Positions 55,716-63,051 of a stretch of 64,000 nucleotides of DNA are shown here, piece after piece. The stretch lies in the NCBI RefSeq assembly GCF_001753245.1, contig NZ_CP017415.1, positions 2,722,040 to 2,786,039 of the forward strand, in the 5' to 3' direction. The stretch comes from Acidihalobacter yilgarnensis (lineage in GTDB: Bacteria > Pseudomonadota > Gammaproteobacteria > DSM-5130 > Acidihalobacteraceae). The notes under the pieces are model-generated. The model was not told the origin of the DNA, made no database searches, and was given only the letters and a program-made list of their open reading frames with translations. Both the position numbers and the translations under genes were made by a program. Each line of letters opens with the position of its first letter. The first letter of the stretch is position 1.

Positions 55716-55744
55716 TTGACACAATCGGATTCATGGATTATGTT
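55716..55744 (+). promoter_or_regulatory. sigma70-type promoter of the ArsR-rhodanese locus
   Basis: A perfect -35 TTGACA (55716-55721) and the -10 TATGTT (55739-55744) are 17 bases apart. The ATG of the regulator is 29 bases downstream of the -10. This is the best-looking promoter in the accessory region. Confidence 0.8.
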
Positions 55745-55746
55745 CT

Positions 55747-55764
55747 AACACTCCTTGGAGTGTT
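55747..55764 (+). promoter_or_regulatory. ArsR-type palindromic operator
   Basis: A perfect inverted repeat AACACTCC-TT-GGAGTGTT lies just after the -10 and just before the start codon. A further half site GGAGTGT is at about 55698-55704. It is well placed to block transcription and probably holds the ribosome-binding site (GGAG). It is the likely binding site of the ArsR domain encoded by the next gene. Confidence 0.7.
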
Positions 55765-55772
55765 TACCTCAT

Positions 55773-56036
55773 ATGACTGAACGTGAAATCAAAGATTTGC
55801 TCTACACACAGGTGGCCCGCATTGGCAAGGCGGTTGCCAGCCCCAAGCGTCTGGAACTAATCGAACTGCTTGCCCAGGCGGAGAAATCCGTCGATCAACT
55901 GGCGGCCGAGGCGGGGATTTCTATCAAGCTGGCCAGCGCGCACCTCAAGGAACTACGCCAGGCCCGTTTGGTCGAGACACGGCGGGAAGGCAAGCATGCG
56001 TATTTCGCGGTCATTCGGCCACTGATTTCACGCTGA
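55773..56036 (+). pseudogene. ArsR domain of an ArsR-rhodanese regulator, interrupted by IS21
   Basis: The first 75 codons encode an ArsR/SmtB winged helix: VASPKRLELIELLAQAEKSVDQLAAEAGISIKLASAHLKELRQARLVETRREGKH in outline (recognition helix at IKLASAHLKELR). It then runs into the IS21 end after GKHAYF and stops at 56036. The remainder (YRLADRSV and the rhodanese) is at 58623-59082. There is no cysteine in the ArsR part, so sensing would rely on the rhodanese domain. The truncated protein lacks the last dimerisation helix and may bind DNA poorly. Confidence 0.85.
55989..55996 (+). repeat. left 8-bp target-site duplication of the IS21 element
   Basis: GGCAAGCA immediately precedes the element; an identical copy follows it at 58615-58622. 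It encodes GKH of the host gene. Confidence 0.93.
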
Positions 56037-56117
56037 TTCGGCCACCCATTTCACGCGCATTCGGCCACCCGTTTCACGGCCATTCGGCCACCCGTTTCAC
56101 GGCCATTCGGCCACCCC
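56013..56117 (+). repeat. tandem 23-bp terminal repeats of the IS21 left end
   Basis: Five copies of ATTCGGCCAC spaced 23 bases apart. Each is followed by a GTTTCACG-like segment except the last. The right end has two inverted copies (GTGGCCGAAT at about 58567-58599). They are probably IstA binding sites. There is no spacer variation, so this is not a CRISPR array. Confidence 0.85.
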
Positions 56118-56185
56118 GTGGGCAGGGGGTGACGCAGGACATCATCCACTAGGATCGACCCTTTTAACGGAGCGAAGGGGTCGAG

Positions 56186-57718
56186 ATGGAGCGATTGTCC
56201 ATGCGCAAGATTCGAGAAGTTTTACGACTGCGGTTCGAAGCGCAGTTGCCCGCCCGCCAGGTCGCCGAGAGCGTGCGCATCGCCCGCAGCAGCGTGGCCG
56301 AGTACGAGCGACGCTTTGCTGTCTCGGGTTTGAACTGGCCGCTGCCGGCGGGCTTGAGCGATACCGAGATCGAGCGTCGTCTGTTCCCGCCCGCGTCGGC
56401 GGTACCGGCCGCTACGCGCCCACTACCGGACTGGCCGGTGGTGCATCAGGAACTGCGCCGTCCCGGCGTCACTCTGATGCTGCTGTGGGAAGAGTACCGG
56501 GCGGCTTACCGCGACGGCTTCGCCTATACGTGGTTCTGTACCCACTACCGCCGTTGGGCCGGCAAGCTCGATCGGGTGATGCGCCAGACCCATCGTGCCG
56601 GCGAGAAGCTGTTCGTCGACTATGCCGGCCAGACGGTCGAGATCATCGACCAACACACCGGTGAGGTGCGTACCGCGCAGGTCTTCATCGCGGTGCTCGG
56701 GGCCTCCAACTACACCTACGCCGAGGCGACCTGGACACAGACGCTACCCGACTGGATCGGTGCGCATGTGCGGGCCTTTGAGTTCCTCGGCGGGGTGAGC
56801 GAGGTCGTCGTCCCGGATAACCTGCGTAGCGGCGTCAGCAAGGCGTGCCGTTATGAGCCGGACCTCAACCCCAGCTATGCGGAACTGGCCGAGCACTATG
56901 GCGTGGCGGTCGTCCCCGCACGCGTGCGCAAGCCGCGCGACAAGGCCAAGGTCGAGAACGCCGTGCTGGTGGTCGAGCGCTGGATCCTCGCCGCCTTGCG
57001 TCATCGCACCTTCTTCACGTTGAAGGAACTCAATGCCGCGATCGCGACCCTGCTGGAGCGGCTCAACAACCGCCCGTTCAAGAAGCTGCCCGGCACACGC
57101 CGTGAGGCCTTCGAACAGATCGATCAGCCCGCCCTGCGGGTGTTGCCCGCCACGCCCTATGTGTTCGCCACCTGGAAAAAGGTCCGGGTACACATCGACT
57201 ACCACGTCGAGGTCGACGGCCATTACTACTCAGTGCCGTACGCCCTGGTCAGGCAACAGCTCGATGCCCGGCTGACCGCCCATACCCTGGAGTGCTTCCA
57301 CAAGGGCCAGCGCGTCGCCAGCCATGTACGCTCCCCGGCCAAGGGCCGTCACACCACGATCACCGCGCACATGCCCAAGGCCCACCGTGAGTATGCCGAA
57401 TGGACGCCGCAGCGACTGGTGCGCTGGGCCGAGAAAAGCGGTCCGGCCACCGCCGGGGTGATCAGCCAGGTCCTGTCCCGGCCGCATCCCCAGCAAGGCT
57501 TCCGCTCTTGCTTAGGGATCATGCGCCTGGGTGAACGCTTCGGTCAGGATCGCCTCGAAGCCGCCTGCCAACGCGCCCTGCTGCTCGGCGCCTGTCGCTA
57601 CAAGAGCCTCGAATCGATCCTCAAGCGCGGTCTCGATCGCCAGCCTCTGCCCGAACAACAGGCACTGTCCTTACCCGAGGCGCACGACCATCTGCGTGGC
57701 CCCGGCTACTACCACTGA
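56186..57718 (+). CDS. istA: IS21-family transposase IstA
   Basis: A 510-residue transposase. An N-terminal HTH (IREVLRLRFEAQLPARQVAESVRIARSSVAEYERR in outline, with ARQVAESVRI as recognition part) is followed by the DDE catalytic core: FVDYAGQTVEI, VVPDNLRSGVSKA, and KAKVENAVLVVERWI. The C-terminal part is a beta-barrel (WKKVRVHIDYHVEVDGHYYSVP). All three acidic residues are present. It works with the ATPase IstB, encoded 31 bases downstream. Confidence 0.95.
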   Translation: MERLSMRKIREVLRLRFEAQLPARQVAESVRIARSSVAEYERRFAVSGLNWPLPAGLSDTEIERRLFPPASAVPAATRPLPDWPVVHQELRRPGVTLMLLWEEYRAAYRDGFAYTWFCTHYRRWAGKLDRVMRQTHRAGEKLFVDYAGQTVEIIDQHTGEVRTAQVFIAVLGASNYTYAEATWTQTLPDWIGAHVRAFEFLGGVSEVVVPDNLRSGVSKACRYEPDLNPSYAELAEHYGVAVVPARVRKPRDKAKVENAVLVVERWILAALRHRTFFTLKELNAAIATLLERLNNRPFKKLPGTRREAFEQIDQPALRVLPATPYVFATWKKVRVHIDYHVEVDGHYYSVPYALVRQQLDARLTAHTLECFHKGQRVASHVRSPAKGRHTTITAHMPKAHREYAEWTPQRLVRWAEKSGPATAGVISQVLSRPHPQQGFRSCLGIMRLGERFGQDRLEAACQRALLLGACRYKSLESILKRGLDRQPLPEQQALSLPEAHDHLRGPGYYH

Positions 57719-57749
57719 TCCTTCACCCATCCAACAAGGGACACACACC

Positions 57750-58508
57750 ATGTTGCACCATCCCACCCTGGACAAGCTCCAGCAACTGCGCCTGACCGGC
57801 ATGCACAAGGCGCTGCGTGACCAACTCGCCTTGCCCGAGATCGAAGACCTGAGCTTCGAGGAACGCCTCGGCCTACTCGCCGACCGCGAACTGACCGAGC
57901 GTGAGGATCGCCGTCTACAGACGCGGTTGCGCCAGGCCAAGCTCAAACAAAACGCCTGCCTGGAGGACATCGACTACCGCACCCGGCGTGGCCTCGACAA
58001 AGGCCTGATCACCCAACTGGCCACCGGCCAATGGATCCGTGAGGGTCTCAATCTGCTGCTCCTGGGTCCCACCGGCGTGGGCAAGACCTGGATCGCCTGT
58101 GCACTCGCCCAGCAGGCCTGTCGGCAGGGTTTTACCACTCGCTACCTGCGGGCCCCCAGGCTGTTCGAGGATCTGCAACTCGCCCACGCCGATGGGCGCT
58201 TCCCCAAGCTCATGGCCAGCCTCGCCAAAACCGACTTGATCGTGCTCGACGACTGGGGCCTCGGCCCGCTGGACGCCACCGCACGGCGTGATCTGCTGGA
58301 ACTGCTCGACGACCGCCACGGCCAGCGCGCCACGCTCGTGACCAGCCAGTTACCGGTCGAGCACTGGCACGAGATCATCGGCGATCCCACCCTAGCCGAT
58401 GCCATCCTCGACCGCCTCGTGCACAACGGCTATCGAATCACCCTCAAGGGCGAATCAATGCGCAAACGGCGAGCCAGGAACTTGACCGTCTCCACCGACT
58501 CCGAGTAA
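57750..58508 (+). CDS. istB: IS21-family helper ATPase IstB
   Basis: A 252-residue DnaA/DnaC-like AAA+ ATPase. Walker A LGPTGVGKTWIA at about residues 106-117, and Walker B LIVLDDWGLG at about 165-174. N-terminal helical part LDKLQQLRLTGMHKALRDQ binds IstA or DNA. It assists target capture and strand transfer. The ATG at 57750 is preceded by AAGGGA. Both genes look complete, so the element may still be mobile. Confidence 0.95.
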   Translation: MLHHPTLDKLQQLRLTGMHKALRDQLALPEIEDLSFEERLGLLADRELTEREDRRLQTRLRQAKLKQNACLEDIDYRTRRGLDKGLITQLATGQWIREGLNLLLLGPTGVGKTWIACALAQQACRQGFTTRYLRAPRLFEDLQLAHADGRFPKLMASLAKTDLIVLDDWGLGPLDATARRDLLELLDDRHGQRATLVTSQLPVEHWHEIIGDPTLADAILDRLVHNGYRITLKGESMRKRRARNLTVSTDSE

Positions 58509-58578
58509 CAATGCAAACCCTGCGTCGCTTCGCTCCGACTGCCCCGGCCGAATCACCGTGAAACAGGTGGCCGAATAA

Positions 58579-59082
58579 ATGCGAAACAGGTGGCCGAATC
58601 ACGCGAAATACGCAGGCAAGCACGTGTTTTATCGCCTCGCTGATCGTAGTGTGGCGGATTTCTGGGTGAGTGTCCGATCACTGGCCGAGGCGCATTTGCT
58701 TGAACTGAAGGATGCACTCGCCAGGATGTCGGAAGAGACGGCAAAACTGACCCCAATCAACCGTACGCAGATGCTTGAACTAGCCAAGCGGGGCGAGGTT
58801 GTCGTACTGGACGTGCGTCCCGAGACGGAATTCGCTGCAGGTCACCTACCGTACGCGCTCTCCATACCACTTGCCCAGGTACGCAAACGCCTGGCGGAAC
58901 TGCCGCAAGACATACCCATCGTGGCGTATTGTCGCGGGCCATTCTGCGTGATGGCCAAAGAGGCCGTGACCTTATTGAGCCGGGAAGGTTATCGGGCCAC
59001 GCGCCTTGAAGATGGCGTAGCGGAGTGGCGGGCGCAAGGTCTGCCGGTCGAGGCAAGGCTGTGCCCTGCGTTCGGTGACTAA
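58579..59082 (+). pseudogene. rhodanese part of the ArsR-rhodanese regulator, downstream of IS21
   Basis: The frame continues the split regulator from 58623 (GKHVFYRLADRSV), with the last ArsR helix and a rhodanese domain at EVVVLDVRPETEFAAGHLPYAL and the active loop VAYCRGPFCVMAKEA. The active site has two cysteines (CRGPFC), typical of ArsR-rhodanese fusions. An ATG at 58579 inside the IS gives a 167-residue chimeric reading (MRNRWPNHAKY...), which may allow production of the rhodanese part. Deleting the IS and one repeat rejoins the parts into one 227-residue ORF. Confidence 0.85.
58615..58622 (+). repeat. right 8-bp target-site duplication of the IS21 element
   Basis: GGCAAGCA, identical to 55989-55996, directly after the CGCA end of the element. 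Confidence 0.93.
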
Positions 59083-59155: not shown

Positions 59156-59911
59156 ATGTTTTTCAGACAACTGCCCACAAAGGATGCCACTCTGTCCTAC
59201 CTGTTCGGCTGCGGTTCCTGCCATGTGGCCGTGGCCGTCGATCCCGTGCGGGGAGACGAAGACTGGTTCATCGAGGAAGCCCGTAAGCAGGATGTTCGCA
59301 TCACGCATGTCATCGACACGCATATTCACGCCGACCATTACTCCGGCGGCCGCTCATTGGCCGAACGTAGCGGCGGCCTTTATTGCCTGCATGAGTCGGA
59401 CAAAGGCAATGTTCAATTCGATTTCGAGGCGCTAGCGGATAAACAACGCATTGAGGTGGGCAACGTCGCCATTGACGTGATGCACACGCCCGGACATACC
59501 CCGGATTCGGTATGCCTTCTGGTCACCGACAAGCGCCGCGGCGATCAACCCTGGTTCGTGTTGACCGGAGACACGCTGTTCGTGGGCGCAGTGGGTCGCC
59601 CCGATCTCGCGGACAGAGAGGTTGAAATGGCCGACCAACTATGGGACAGCCTACGTGAAAAATTGCTGGATCTGCCCGATGAAACGGAAATCTATGCAGG
59701 ACATGTGGCAGGCAGCGTGTGCGGTGCGGGCATCTCAGGTAAACCGGTCTCGACCATCGGATTCGAAAAACGCTGGAATCCCATGCTGAGCATGCCCCGC
59801 GAAGCGTTTGTCGAAGCCTTGACCCTGGAAATTCCGCAGCGTCCCGCCGAAATGGATCGCATGGTCGAGGCCAATCTTGGACTCAAACCAGCTCCTTCCG
59901 TTGTAGTTTAA
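59156..59911 (+). CDS. ETHE1-type MBL-fold metallo-hydrolase (putative persulfide dioxygenase)
   Basis: A 251-residue metallo-beta-lactamase-fold protein. Metal ligands in DTHIHADHYSGG (HxHxDH, about residues 57-62), PGHTPDSV (about 112) and GDTLFVGAVGRPDL (about 141) match the ETHE1 persulfide dioxygenase group, including the GRxD step typical of it. These enzymes oxidise glutathione persulfide to sulfite. The ATG follows GAGGAGG. It lies 73 bases after the ArsR-rhodanese gene, its probable regulator, and 9 bases before an MFS gene. A glyoxalase II role is possible but less likely. Confidence 0.86.
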   Translation: MFFRQLPTKDATLSYLFGCGSCHVAVAVDPVRGDEDWFIEEARKQDVRITHVIDTHIHADHYSGGRSLAERSGGLYCLHESDKGNVQFDFEALADKQRIEVGNVAIDVMHTPGHTPDSVCLLVTDKRRGDQPWFVLTGDTLFVGAVGRPDLADREVEMADQLWDSLREKLLDLPDETEIYAGHVAGSVCGAGISGKPVSTIGFEKRWNPMLSMPREAFVEALTLEIPQRPAEMDRMVEANLGLKPAPSVVV

Positions 59912-59920
59912 GGCATTGCG

Positions 59921-61249
59921 ATGAATTTCGATCCCACCGTGAGTCAAGACGAAGCCCACCAGCGCGGTATCCGTCTCAATGTCTGGCAATTTTTCATGCA
60001 GACTCTGCAAGTGGTGTTCGTCGGTCTGACCTTGGGCACTGAGCGAACCGTGCTGCCGGCATTGTCTGCCGATTTCGGCGTGTCCAAAGGGGCCTTTCTG
60101 TGGCTGGCCTCCTTCGTCATCGCATTCGGTTTCGTCAAGGGGCTCGTGAACTTCGCCGCTGGCACCATGGCCGATCGCATCGGACGCAAACGGGTGCTGC
60201 TGCTCGGTTGGCTGGCGGCCTTACCGATCCCTTTCCTGTTGCTGTACGCACAGAGCTGGGGCTGGGTCGTCATCGCGAACGTATTCCTCGGCATCAGTCA
60301 GGGACTGGCCTGGTCGGTCACCGTGATCAGCATGGTGGATCTGGCACGTACCGAACAACGAGGTCTGGCGGTGGGGATCAATGAGTTCGGTGGCTATGCC
60401 GCCATGGGCGTAGCCGGGCTGACGACGGGAGTCCTGGCGACCGCTTACGGTCCGCGAGTCGCACTGTTCGGGTTTTCGCTGGGAGTGATTCTGCTCGCCG
60501 CGTTGACTACCCTCTGGTTTGTGCGCGAGACGCTAGGTTTCGCCCATGCCGAGAGCCGCGCCCACCGCGAAGGACGCCATGACGGCCCAAAGGCGCGCAT
60601 TCCACAAACCCGTTCCGAGCAACCCGGCGCCTGGGAGATATTCCTACTGGTGTCATTCCGTCACCCCACTCTGCGCGCGCTCAGTCAGGCCGGCGTGATC
60701 AATAAAGTGGCCGATACGCTGGTATGGATTCTTTTTCCGATTTATCTACATCAGCGCGGTCTCGGACTGATCGGCATCGGCTGGATCACCGGTGTTTATG
60801 CGGCGGTGTGGGGTATCTCACAGCTGTGGAGCGGCCCGCTGTCCGACCGTATTGGCCGCAAGTGGCTGATCGCTTCCGGATTATGGCTCTTGGCACTGGG
60901 CATCCTGGGCGTGTTGCTGCTGCAAGGACTCACCCTCTGGCTAGCGGCCGCAGCTCTCATGGGAACCGGCATGGCGATGCTGTATCCCAACATCATCGCC
61001 GCGGTTAACGACATCTCCGATCCGCACTGGCGAGGTGCTTCGTTGGGCGCGTATCGCTACTGGCGCGACACTGGCTACGCCATCGGCGGCCTGCTGCTGG
61101 GCTGGGTGGCCCAGGCCAGCCACCACGTTGTGCCGGCGTTCTGGACCACAATCGCATTGCTGCTGATATCGGGCGCCTGGGTCGCTTTTGGCAGTGAGGA
61201 AACGCACCCGCGGATCAATCCAGCGCCAACACCGAACGATGTGTTGTAA
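59921..61249 (+). CDS. MFS transporter linked to the persulfide locus
   Basis: A 442-residue major facilitator protein with 12 helices. The loop 2-3 signature GTMADRIGRKRVLLLG (about residues 82-97) and the second-half repeat SGPLSDRIGRKWLIASG are intact. The N-terminal hydrophilic stretch (about 30 residues) precedes helix 1. It starts 9 bases after the MBL gene and so is in the same operon. Export or import of a sulfur compound, or sulfite, is plausible by context only. Confidence 0.86.
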   Translation: MNFDPTVSQDEAHQRGIRLNVWQFFMQTLQVVFVGLTLGTERTVLPALSADFGVSKGAFLWLASFVIAFGFVKGLVNFAAGTMADRIGRKRVLLLGWLAALPIPFLLLYAQSWGWVVIANVFLGISQGLAWSVTVISMVDLARTEQRGLAVGINEFGGYAAMGVAGLTTGVLATAYGPRVALFGFSLGVILLAALTTLWFVRETLGFAHAESRAHREGRHDGPKARIPQTRSEQPGAWEIFLLVSFRHPTLRALSQAGVINKVADTLVWILFPIYLHQRGLGLIGIGWITGVYAAVWGISQLWSGPLSDRIGRKWLIASGLWLLALGILGVLLLQGLTLWLAAAALMGTGMAMLYPNIIAAVNDISDPHWRGASLGAYRYWRDTGYAIGGLLLGWVAQASHHVVPAFWTTIALLLISGAWVAFGSEETHPRINPAPTPNDVL

Positions 61250-61374: not shown

Positions 61375-62558
61375 ATGAAAAAAAAGGTCGTCATTGCAGG
61401 CAATGGATTCGCTTCTCTGTTTTTCATCATGTACTTTCTTGCTAGTCCTGCCTTCCCCTTCTTTGCCTGGTTCATTCGGAGAATCCATTCCCGCTACGAC
61501 ATCACCGTGATCGGAAACGGGGTATTCGTATACATCCCGGCAATCCCTGGATTTCTGACTGGAAAGCGGAACAAAGCAGGCATTACGGTCGACATTCGTC
61601 CCTTCCTGCAGCGGAGAAACATTCGTTTTGTCGAAGGCCAGGTGACCGATGTGCGGGATAACGGAAGAACGGTGATCACGGACCGGGGAACGTACACGAA
61701 TGACGCCCTCTTTCTCGGCACGGGTCCGTCTTTCAGGAAAGATGATATCCCAGGAACGGAGGAGCACACCTATTCGCCTTGTTATGGACCCGATGACATG
61801 GAGCGTTTCATGGCTAAGCTTGCGTCGCTAGACGGCGGGATCGTCTATATCGGATTCAAGATCAACAAGACGGACGGTTTTGTCGCCGGACGCACCGGGC
61901 CGATGTATGAGTGCGTCTGCCTTCTGGATTATGCCTTGAGAAAAAGAGGAGTGCGTGATCAGTTCGAGATTCATTTTTTTTCACCCAATCGAAACCCAGG
62001 AGAAAAAGGTGTGCTCACAGACCGGCTCCGAGAGCGGGAGATCATTCTTGACGACGGGTATGCTCCTGTCGAATTCGTCGAGGGGGCATGGTCAATCCGG
62101 ACGGCACTTTCCGCAAAGCTGATTTGGTGCTCTATTCGCCGGAAATGACTGGTCCAAAATTCGCGCAACAGTCCTGCCTTCCCATTTCTGTGGGAGGCCA
62201 CCTTGATGTCGATCGATATGGGCAAGCCAGGGAATTACATAATGTGTTTGCCGCAGGCGATTGCGCCAGTCATGAAGCCCCTCCGCCATGGGTGCCGCAT
62301 CAGGCCCATATGGCACAGCTACGCGCCAAAGCGGCGGCACGAAACATGAAGGCCGTGCTAGCCGGAAAGAGCGCAACCAATCGCTATCGCCACGAACTTT
62401 CGTGCATACTGGATATGGAGAATGACGCGTTATGGATGCACGTCTCTGAAGACGGCAAACCACCATTCTGGAATATTTTTCCTAGACGCTCAAAAATACT
62501 GATTCGCGTTAAAGGGTCGTTCGAGTGGATATTTCTATATTATCTTCGGCATTTATAA
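61375..62558 (+). CDS. SQR/flavocytochrome-c-like FAD oxidoreductase, frameshifted
   Basis: An NAD(P)/FAD-type flavoprotein of about 394 residues. The first frame starts with VVIAGNGFASLF (FAD loop), then ITVIGNGVFVYIPAIPG, ALFLGTGPSF and TGPMYECVCLLDYALRKRG, and breaks off after FVEG at 62080. The second frame resumes with MVNPDGTFRKADLVL and NVFAAGDCASHE (second FAD motif) and ends at 62558. One more G in the G5 run (62082-62086) joins them as VEGGMVNPDG. Cysteines in SPCYGP, YECVC and QQSCLP may be the redox-active ones of a sulfide:quinone reductase. The gene is AT-richer than its surroundings and looks acquired. Its end lies 42 bases before an IS21 relic. Confidence 0.78.
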
Positions 62559-62600: not shown

Positions 62601-63051
62601 TGCGTATTTTTCGTTCATTCGCTCACCCGTTTCGCCGCCATCAGGACATCACCGTTCTAGGATCGACTTTTTCAACGGCGCGAGGGGTGCGCAATCGAGC
62701 GATTGTCCATGCGCAAAATCCGAGATGTTTTGCGACGGCAGCTCAAGATGCAGCTATTTGTTCGCGCTGACCATGATACTTAAAGCCGACCGCTGCCTGA
62801 CATTGACCGACACTCCATCAGCCCCGGCGTAGCTCTGCCGTTGCTGTGGGAAGATAGTATCCTGCGACCCCCTGGAGACTCTGCCGATACCGGGTAAGCT
62901 TGATCTGGTTGCGCTAGGCCCATCGCGCCGACAAGCAGTGTTCGTCGACTACGCCGGGTAAACAGCCGAGATCATCGGCCCCTCCTCCCCCATCGATTCC
63001 GTCTCAAGCCGATACCATCCTCGACCGCCTCGTACACGACAGCTATCGTAG
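62601..63051 (+). mobile_element. decayed IS21 relic related to the intact element
   Basis: The left end TGCGTATTTTTCGTTCATTCG matches the left end of the intact element with changes. It is followed by a stretch matching the istA leader and start (AGGATCGACTTTTTCAACGG; GCGATTGTCCATGCGCAAA), then shreds of istA (GTTCGTCGACTACGCCGGGT) and the 3' end of istB (CATCCTCGACCGCCTCGT). Most internal sequence is deleted, and all frames are broken. No right inverted repeat was found. It is a diverged copy, older than the intact one and in the same orientation. Confidence 0.82.

Follow-up and report, generated by a model that had tools for sequence, protein, structure and literature searches.

Insertion of an IS21-family element into the gene of a repressor has been described for ISS12 in Pseudomonas putida S12. 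According to the part of that report considered here, insertion of ISS12 in srpS led to constitutive srpABC, precise excision from srpA occurred at about 1e-7 under selection, promoter activity was low at the downstream end of the element and nil at its upstream end, and a table grouped ISS12 with ISPpu7 (PMC5658596). We analysed a window of 64,000 nucleotides from Acidihalobacter yilgarnensis (contig NZ_CP017415.1, positions 2,722,040 to 2,786,039 of the forward strand), in which an insertion sequence (IS) of the IS21 family splits the gene of an ArsR-rhodanese regulator, upstream of the genes for a probable persulfide dioxygenase (PDO) and an MFS transporter. The event is an ordinary, recent case of insertional inactivation, of a known kind. 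ISS12 in srpS is its closest precedent: ISS12/ISPpu7 is also an IS21 element of about 2.6 kb with end repeats, inserted in the repressor gene of the operon controlled, and the table rows considered give duplications of 6-7 bp (PMC5658596), compared to 6-8 bp for the element here. Across query positions 363-2577, our element was 74.5% identical at the DNA level to a copy annotated as ISPpu7 on a plasmid of P. putida S12. However, constitutive srpABC expression and clean excision were measured for ISS12, whereas the present case is known from its sequence. Moreover, the pump genes are presumably not cotranscribed behind srpS, in which case ISS12 does not sever the pump from its promoter, as the element here may do. 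Knock-out of a local repressor by IS21 elements is a known route of quick adaptation, to which this case would add a sulfur operon from a genus that is studied in connection with bioleaching under saline conditions. A study of metal and oxidative stress genes of Acidihalobacter, as far as its main text was covered, mentions neither IS21 nor rhodanese (PMC7760498).

The element belongs to the IS21 family, as seen from istA with a DDE core, istB, inverted ends with internal repeats and a target duplication. IstA matched NF033546 with 310 bits (cut-off 160) and PF00665 (rve, the DDE integrase core) with 39 bits (cut-off 32.6), and IstB matched NF038214 with 279 bits (cut-off 200). The inverted ends TGCGTATTTCGCG and CGCGAAATACGCA agree at 13/13 positions. 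They enclose 23-bp repeats sharing the core ATTCGGCCAC, of which the left end has five and the right end two. Target duplications of the IS21 family measure 4-8 bp. We found the same 8 bp, GGCAAGCA, at both flanks, so that the simple insertion with perfect duplication and perfect ends proposed by an earlier reading of the DNA letters (the sequence-only reading) was confirmed.

The element entered after the second base of codon 75 of the regulator gene. Joining position 55996 to 58623 unites 224 nt on the left with 460 nt on the right into 684 nt, from the ATG at 55773 to 59082. This corresponds to 227 codons and a stop, which bears out the seamless 227-residue open reading frame (ORF) of the sequence-only reading and, on paper, its claim of exact restoration, since loss of the IS with one 8-bp copy gives the intact frame. 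By profile matches, the gene codes for an ArsR winged helix in its left half (PF01022, 45 bits, cut-off 22) and for a rhodanese domain in its right half (PF00581, 52 bits). NF033788 was matched with 67.5 bits by the left-half product, hereafter the stub, and with 76.7 bits by the homologue L052 (cut-off 55). Relatives were compared with one genome per species, namely four genomes of the genus and family (G001-G004) and G023. In 4/4 of the former the gene is uninterrupted, at 87-93% identity and with no IS at the site, the C-terminal frame ending six codons earlier in G003 and G004. Because the same gene is uninterrupted in four relatives and the same IS is present at four further sites, the split is not a chance likeness. 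An old insertion shared with relatives and decayed at its ends, or a lack of any intact fusion gene, is thus not what we observed: the IS is at this site in 0/4 genomes, its ends are undecayed, and intact fusions exist.

Neither gene half contains stops or frameshifts. The ratio of nonsynonymous to synonymous changes (dN/dS) of the rhodanese half was 0.19-0.22 against the four relatives and 0.16-0.36 among the relatives themselves, in the rows listed. For the helix-turn-helix (HTH) half, the rows listed gave 0.24 against G002, 0.10 against G001 and 0.05-0.07 against G004 and G003, compared to 0-0.07 among the relatives, figures that rest on 2-5 changes. The raised values may reflect noise or an early relaxation of selection. 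A second regulator copy serving as backup was also considered and dropped: among the genome matches listed no second full-length ArsR-rhodanese was found, the others being 28-39% identical and single-domain.

The age of the insertion was estimated from the copies of the element. In this genome, a single contig of 3,566,941 bases, we found at least five copies, 100% identical across 2,618 bp (40 of 80 first-look candidates scored). The duplications at the five sites measure 8, 7, 6, 7 and 8 bp and are thus not always 8 bp. In the five relatives no close full-length copy was found among the 40 first-look candidates scored per genome (36/36 in G003). In G002, eight matches of 66% span query positions 448-2469. 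G004 combines short fragments (at most 89%) with longer ones at 64-65%, G001 has a single 33-base match, and G003 and G023 have none. Since this genome has five identical copies and the search of five relatives gave no close full-length one, a recent insertion is supported by the sequence comparison, in agreement with the recent disruption proposed by the sequence-only reading. A decayed or ancestral insertion is ruled out by the identical copies, the intact gene in relatives and the lack of a close full-length IS among the candidates scored there. Five identical copies also suggest mobility in this host, and the element, which resembles ISPpu7/ISS12, was probably acquired recently and is probably active. 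An assembly or clonal artefact, i.e. an insertion confined to the clone that was sequenced or a false junction made at one of the IS copies, is hardly credible. Mis-joins classically arise at identical copies, of which this genome has five, and with one genome compared per species a clonal event would go unnoticed. However, the two flanks share the 8-bp duplication and carry the halves of one gene, unlike a mis-join, and the other four copies likewise bear matched duplications.

We then considered where the cut falls in the protein, using a model of L052, which is 87% identical (predicted local distance difference test, pLDDT, 90.3; predicted template modelling score, pTM, 0.54, which leaves the domain arrangement uncertain). 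In this model the wing strands span residues 67-72 and 75-80, a long helix residues 83-114, and the rhodanese elements begin at residue 122; the cut falls at residue 75, where the second wing strand begins. Insertion at the tip of the DNA-binding wing thus removes the long helix, which we take to be the usual ArsR C-terminal dimer helix, and the rhodanese domain from the DNA-binding half. The model of the 87-residue stub (mean pLDDT 91.9) has a two-strand wing (67-72, and 75-80 formed by HAYFAV) and no long helix, only residues 83-86 being helical. With the dimer helix present in the L052 model and missing from the stub model, the split gene is a broken member of its family. Because the stub lacks this helix and the rhodanese domain, signal-dependent repression has, according to the models, very probably been lost.

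It is very improbable that the gene is split but working, with the stub still binding its operator through a wing strand coded by the IS and the right half made as a separate rhodanese. The stub model does retain both wing strands, NF033788 covers stub residues 15-80 above its cut-off, and the IS end provides AGGTGG and an ATG in frame with the right half, whose product would comprise the long helix followed by the rhodanese domain and its intact CRGPFC. However, the alignment behind the stub model (the stub and 21 proteins of the homologue alignment used below) superimposes the tail coded by the IS on the natural strand, so that the model is biased that way. Moreover, the stub has neither dimer helix nor sensor, and an in-frame start has a one-in-three chance. 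Just as doubtful is a rewired locus in which HAYFAV, coded by the left end of the IS, would replace the wing strand HVFYRL, the right end of the IS would supply ribosome site and ATG for the rhodanese, and a sulfur promoter, freed or loosely repressed, would drive istA-istB. If this were true, a transposon would stand under a formerly sulfur-responsive promoter, one fused sensor-repressor would have become two proteins, and exact excision would be the way back.

The ArsR-rhodanese family may be of more interest than the insertion itself, being widespread, with an invariant CRGP[FY]C loop and a shared predicted operator. In a scan of the collection we found at least 79 loci. Of these, 77 match over at least 200 residues, 75 of them with an open frame of 180-260 residues, and two that match with the HTH part only (L128, L130) were excluded. 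Thiobacillus, Thioalkalivibrio, Thiomonas and Thauera appear in the locus titles, together with many metagenome-assembled genomes. We aligned 47 of the 75 usable proteins. The rhodanese loop reads CRGPFC in 43 and CRGPYC in four, and both cysteines (residues 178 and 183 of L052, within the rhodanese domain) are invariant in 47/47. This loop is unlike the usual rhodanese loop. As judged from the alignment, it is a candidate two-cysteine sulfane-sulfur switch, and the family clearly qualifies as a candidate sulfane-sulfur sensor with the fused rhodanese as sensing part.

In this respect the family differs from described sulfur-responsive regulators. SqrR, BigR, YgaV and sHdrR are also ArsR winged-helix proteins whose targets, in the part of the literature considered, belong to sulfur oxidation or detoxification and include pdo (PMC12423496). 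The 50 fold matches listed include 6o8o for SqrR, and L052 matched the BigR profile NF040642 weakly (49.8 bits, cut-off 155). SqrR/BigR-type repressors are described, in the sections covered, as sensing with two cysteines of the ArsR protein itself (PMC9774590, PMC12423496). In contrast, no conserved cysteine column is found in the ArsR half here (residues 1-118): 19/47 homologues have some cysteine there, yet no column exceeds 14/47, and the invariant pair lies in the fused rhodanese domain. PDO-rhodanese fusions (PDB 5ve3) and Blh also tie rhodanese to persulfide oxidation and match in the rhodanese part, but there the rhodanese is fused to an enzyme and here to a regulator. The structure matches listed cover one domain each (3gw2 and 2kko for the HTH, 3nhv and 5ve3 for the rhodanese), and no solved structure spanning the fusion was among them. 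A literature search by title brought up no description of the family, which, for a search at the level of titles, is not taken to mean that it is unpublished.

The IS leaves untouched the predicted promoter and operator of the regulator. By eye, G003 and G004 have a TTGAC(A/G) with a -10-like hexamer at the corresponding position, which was not evident in G001 and G002. A palindromic motif search in 80 upstream regions (this genome, 75 named loci and four relatives; L084 and L091, with no start codon, and L134, on the same contig as L052, were left out) converged on TTCTAACGATCGTTAGAA, mostly 24-30 nt ahead of the start codon. Its expectation-maximization score was 625, compared to 68-94 in 12 shuffled sets. 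Some loci, e.g., L107, L114 and L123, have no good site. The site here starts on the last two bases of the predicted -10 hexamer (TATGTT), a layout that suggests auto-repression of the regulator through the predicted operator. The pattern has a single site in the window, in a scan whose result was not beyond chance (22/100 shuffles as good). An operator regulon in this genome was considered and rejected, as the genome has just one more TTCYAA-N6-TTRGAR site (C1:3418288), which is located within an ORF and probably due to chance. The consensus TTCTAA-N6-TTAGAA, common upstream of members of the regulator family, is usable for regulon hunts in other sulfur oxidisers.

The best overall explanation, with a probability of about 0.55, is that repression has been lost and that the downstream genes depend on read-through, with unregulated, sulfur-independent expression at an unpredictable level. 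The IS21 element inserted by simple transposition in codon 75 of a gene whose product would be an autoregulated repressor controlling a persulfide operon. The intact ArsR-rhodanese protein would repress as a dimer, bind TTCTAA-N6-TTAGAA at the promoter of its own gene and sense sulfane sulfur via the two invariant CRGP[FY]C cysteines of its rhodanese domain. The 87-residue stub, with neither long helix nor sensor, would provide no signal-dependent repression, and the native promoter would be freed. Because the codirectional IS stands between this promoter and the PDO and MFS genes, the latter would be reached by transcripts that read through istA-istB, which would thereby be transcribed as well, with any weak outward activity of the IS end as a further contribution. 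We found one terminator-like match within the stretch, inside istA (shuffles average 2.3).

Several observations weigh against this explanation. A consensus scan for promoters, limited to the sigma-70 type, found no match at the right end of the IS or between it and the PDO gene, and an outward IS promoter there was dropped as a candidate. The suggestion of the sequence-only reading that the operon may have become constitutive or dependent on an IS promoter thus stays a hypothesis, and since the IS also parts the operon from its native promoter, polar loss would be the opposite outcome. A 2.6-kb insert is often polar. The role as a repressor is assigned by analogy to the ArsR relatives SqrR and BigR, which, unlike this family, sense through cysteines of the ArsR domain. 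The promoter scan found two sites in the stretch compared to 0.9 +/- 1.3 in shuffles, a count not beyond them, so that it is weak alone. Although the operator form TTC-N9-TTRGA occurred in 54/80 upstream regions, compared to at most 2 in 200 shuffles, the shuffles ignore relatedness, and 26/80 lack this form, including G023, which has a variant site. The regulator is also not always tied to the PDO and MFS genes: in 60 named loci with 4 kb downstream (17 of 77 with less were left out), neither was within reach in 21. Finally, the sulfide:quinone-reductase-like (SQR-like) gene farther downstream is also broken, which fits decay equally. The features of the locus are collected in Table 1.

Table 1. 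Features of the interrupted regulator locus, in positions of the window
Feature	Position	Strand	Remarks
Predicted sigma-70-like promoter of regulator	55716-55744	+	TTGACA, 17 nt, TATGTT; 10/12 consensus positions
Predicted operator	55743-55760	+	TTCTAACACTCCTTGGAG; intact; family consensus TTCTAA-N6-TTAGAA
Left half of regulator, 87-aa ORF	55773-56036	+	ArsR winged helix; native residues 1-75 and 12 IS-coded residues
Target duplication, left copy	55989-55996	+	GGCAAGCA, 8 bp
IS21-family element	55997-58614	+	2,618 bp; same orientation as regulator
Left terminal inverted repeat	55997-56009	+	TGCGTATTTCGCG, 13 bp; then five 23-bp repeats to about 56116
istA, transposase	56186-57718	+	510 aa; rve and Mu C-terminal domains
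istB, helper ATPase	57750-58508	+	252 aa; downstream of istA, same strand
Right half of regulator, 167-aa ORF	58579-59082	+	ATG inside right end of IS; AGGTGG 8 nt upstream
Right terminal inverted repeat	58602-58614	+	CGCGAAATACGCA, 13 bp; 23-bp repeats ahead from about 58546
Target duplication, right copy	58615-58622	+	GGCAAGCA, 8 bp
Metallo-beta-lactamase-fold protein	59156-59911	+	PF00753; full-length frame; probable ETHE1-type PDO
MFS transporter	59921-61249	+	Full-length frame
SQR-like FAD oxidoreductase	61375-62558	+	Two overlapping frames; family matches below cut-off

Downstream of the regulator, the product assigned as PDO is probably of the ETHE1 type, as judged from context and from the label of the sequence-only reading; its NCBIfam matches were all below cut-off. 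The order regulator-PDO-MFS on one strand was found in 5/5 fetched relatives (G001-G004 and G023). Among the 60 named loci, both genes were within reach in 30 and the MFS gene in 39. Domains and gene order are thus as the sequence-only reading had described them. The SQR-like gene is one uninterrupted frame of 393 residues in G002 (95-97% identical), and the stretches fetched from the remaining four relatives showed no copy at this place. Its split here reflects either a sequencing error or a further lesion within the sulfur locus.

As a second lesion, it would favor the main rival explanation, a polar knock-out with decay, in which the persulfide operon, severed from its promoter by the IS, is in the course of being lost. 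We consider this possible, though clearly the less probable outcome. It would also fit the lack of a promoter-like site from the right end of the IS to the PDO gene and the two other PDO-like genes in the genome (39% identical at C1:3512770, 37% at C1:2329680), with which loss of the operon might be tolerated. The HTH-half dN/dS values against G002 and G001 point the same way, exceeding those among the relatives on the basis of 2-3 changes. However, the PDO and MFS frames are full length, the rhodanese-half dN/dS lies within the range of the relatives, and the SQR-like gene stands outside the conserved operon, with a same-place copy found in G002 alone of five relatives.

The other four sites of the element bear on a further explanation, neutral hitchhiking, in which the regulator was lost with hardly any change in downstream expression, the downstream genes having their own promoter or the operon mattering little in culture. 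This is rather improbable. The other four copies show no common theme, and an expansion of the IS in the laboratory would look alike. However, the gap between the regulator and PDO matches is short (64-80 nt in G001-G004), with no promoter-like site in it here. Targeting of regulator genes by the IS was also considered and rejected, since the other copies lie in or beside unrelated genes and the duplications have no evident common motif. One copy (L003, G000:C1:2370556-2373173) lies about eight codons into a gene of the YscJ/FliF family (PF01514, 230 bits), codirectional with it and possibly a motility gene. Of two others (L002, C1:2710176-2712793; L005, C1:1506427-1509044), one closely precedes an acetyltransferase-like ORF and the other sits within a GNAT-like ORF, both ORFs being named by eye. 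At one further site just a 127-codon frame spans the copy.

The source of the element was sought in other records. In a search of 369 class genomes, drawn from a larger set and with two first-look candidates scored in every genome (E <= 1e-200), hits were limited to this genome and a single match of 68%. A match was found in 52 plasmid records, 49 at 60-80% and three at 80-90%, the 20 listed being at 73-75%. Neither search pointed to a donor. A plasmid search with the HTH half gave four matches of 72-74%, none informative on the IS site. Near the operon, at about 62642-63048 of the window (C1:2784681-2785087), we observed short pieces 79-90% identical to the IS, likely the remnant of an older related element.

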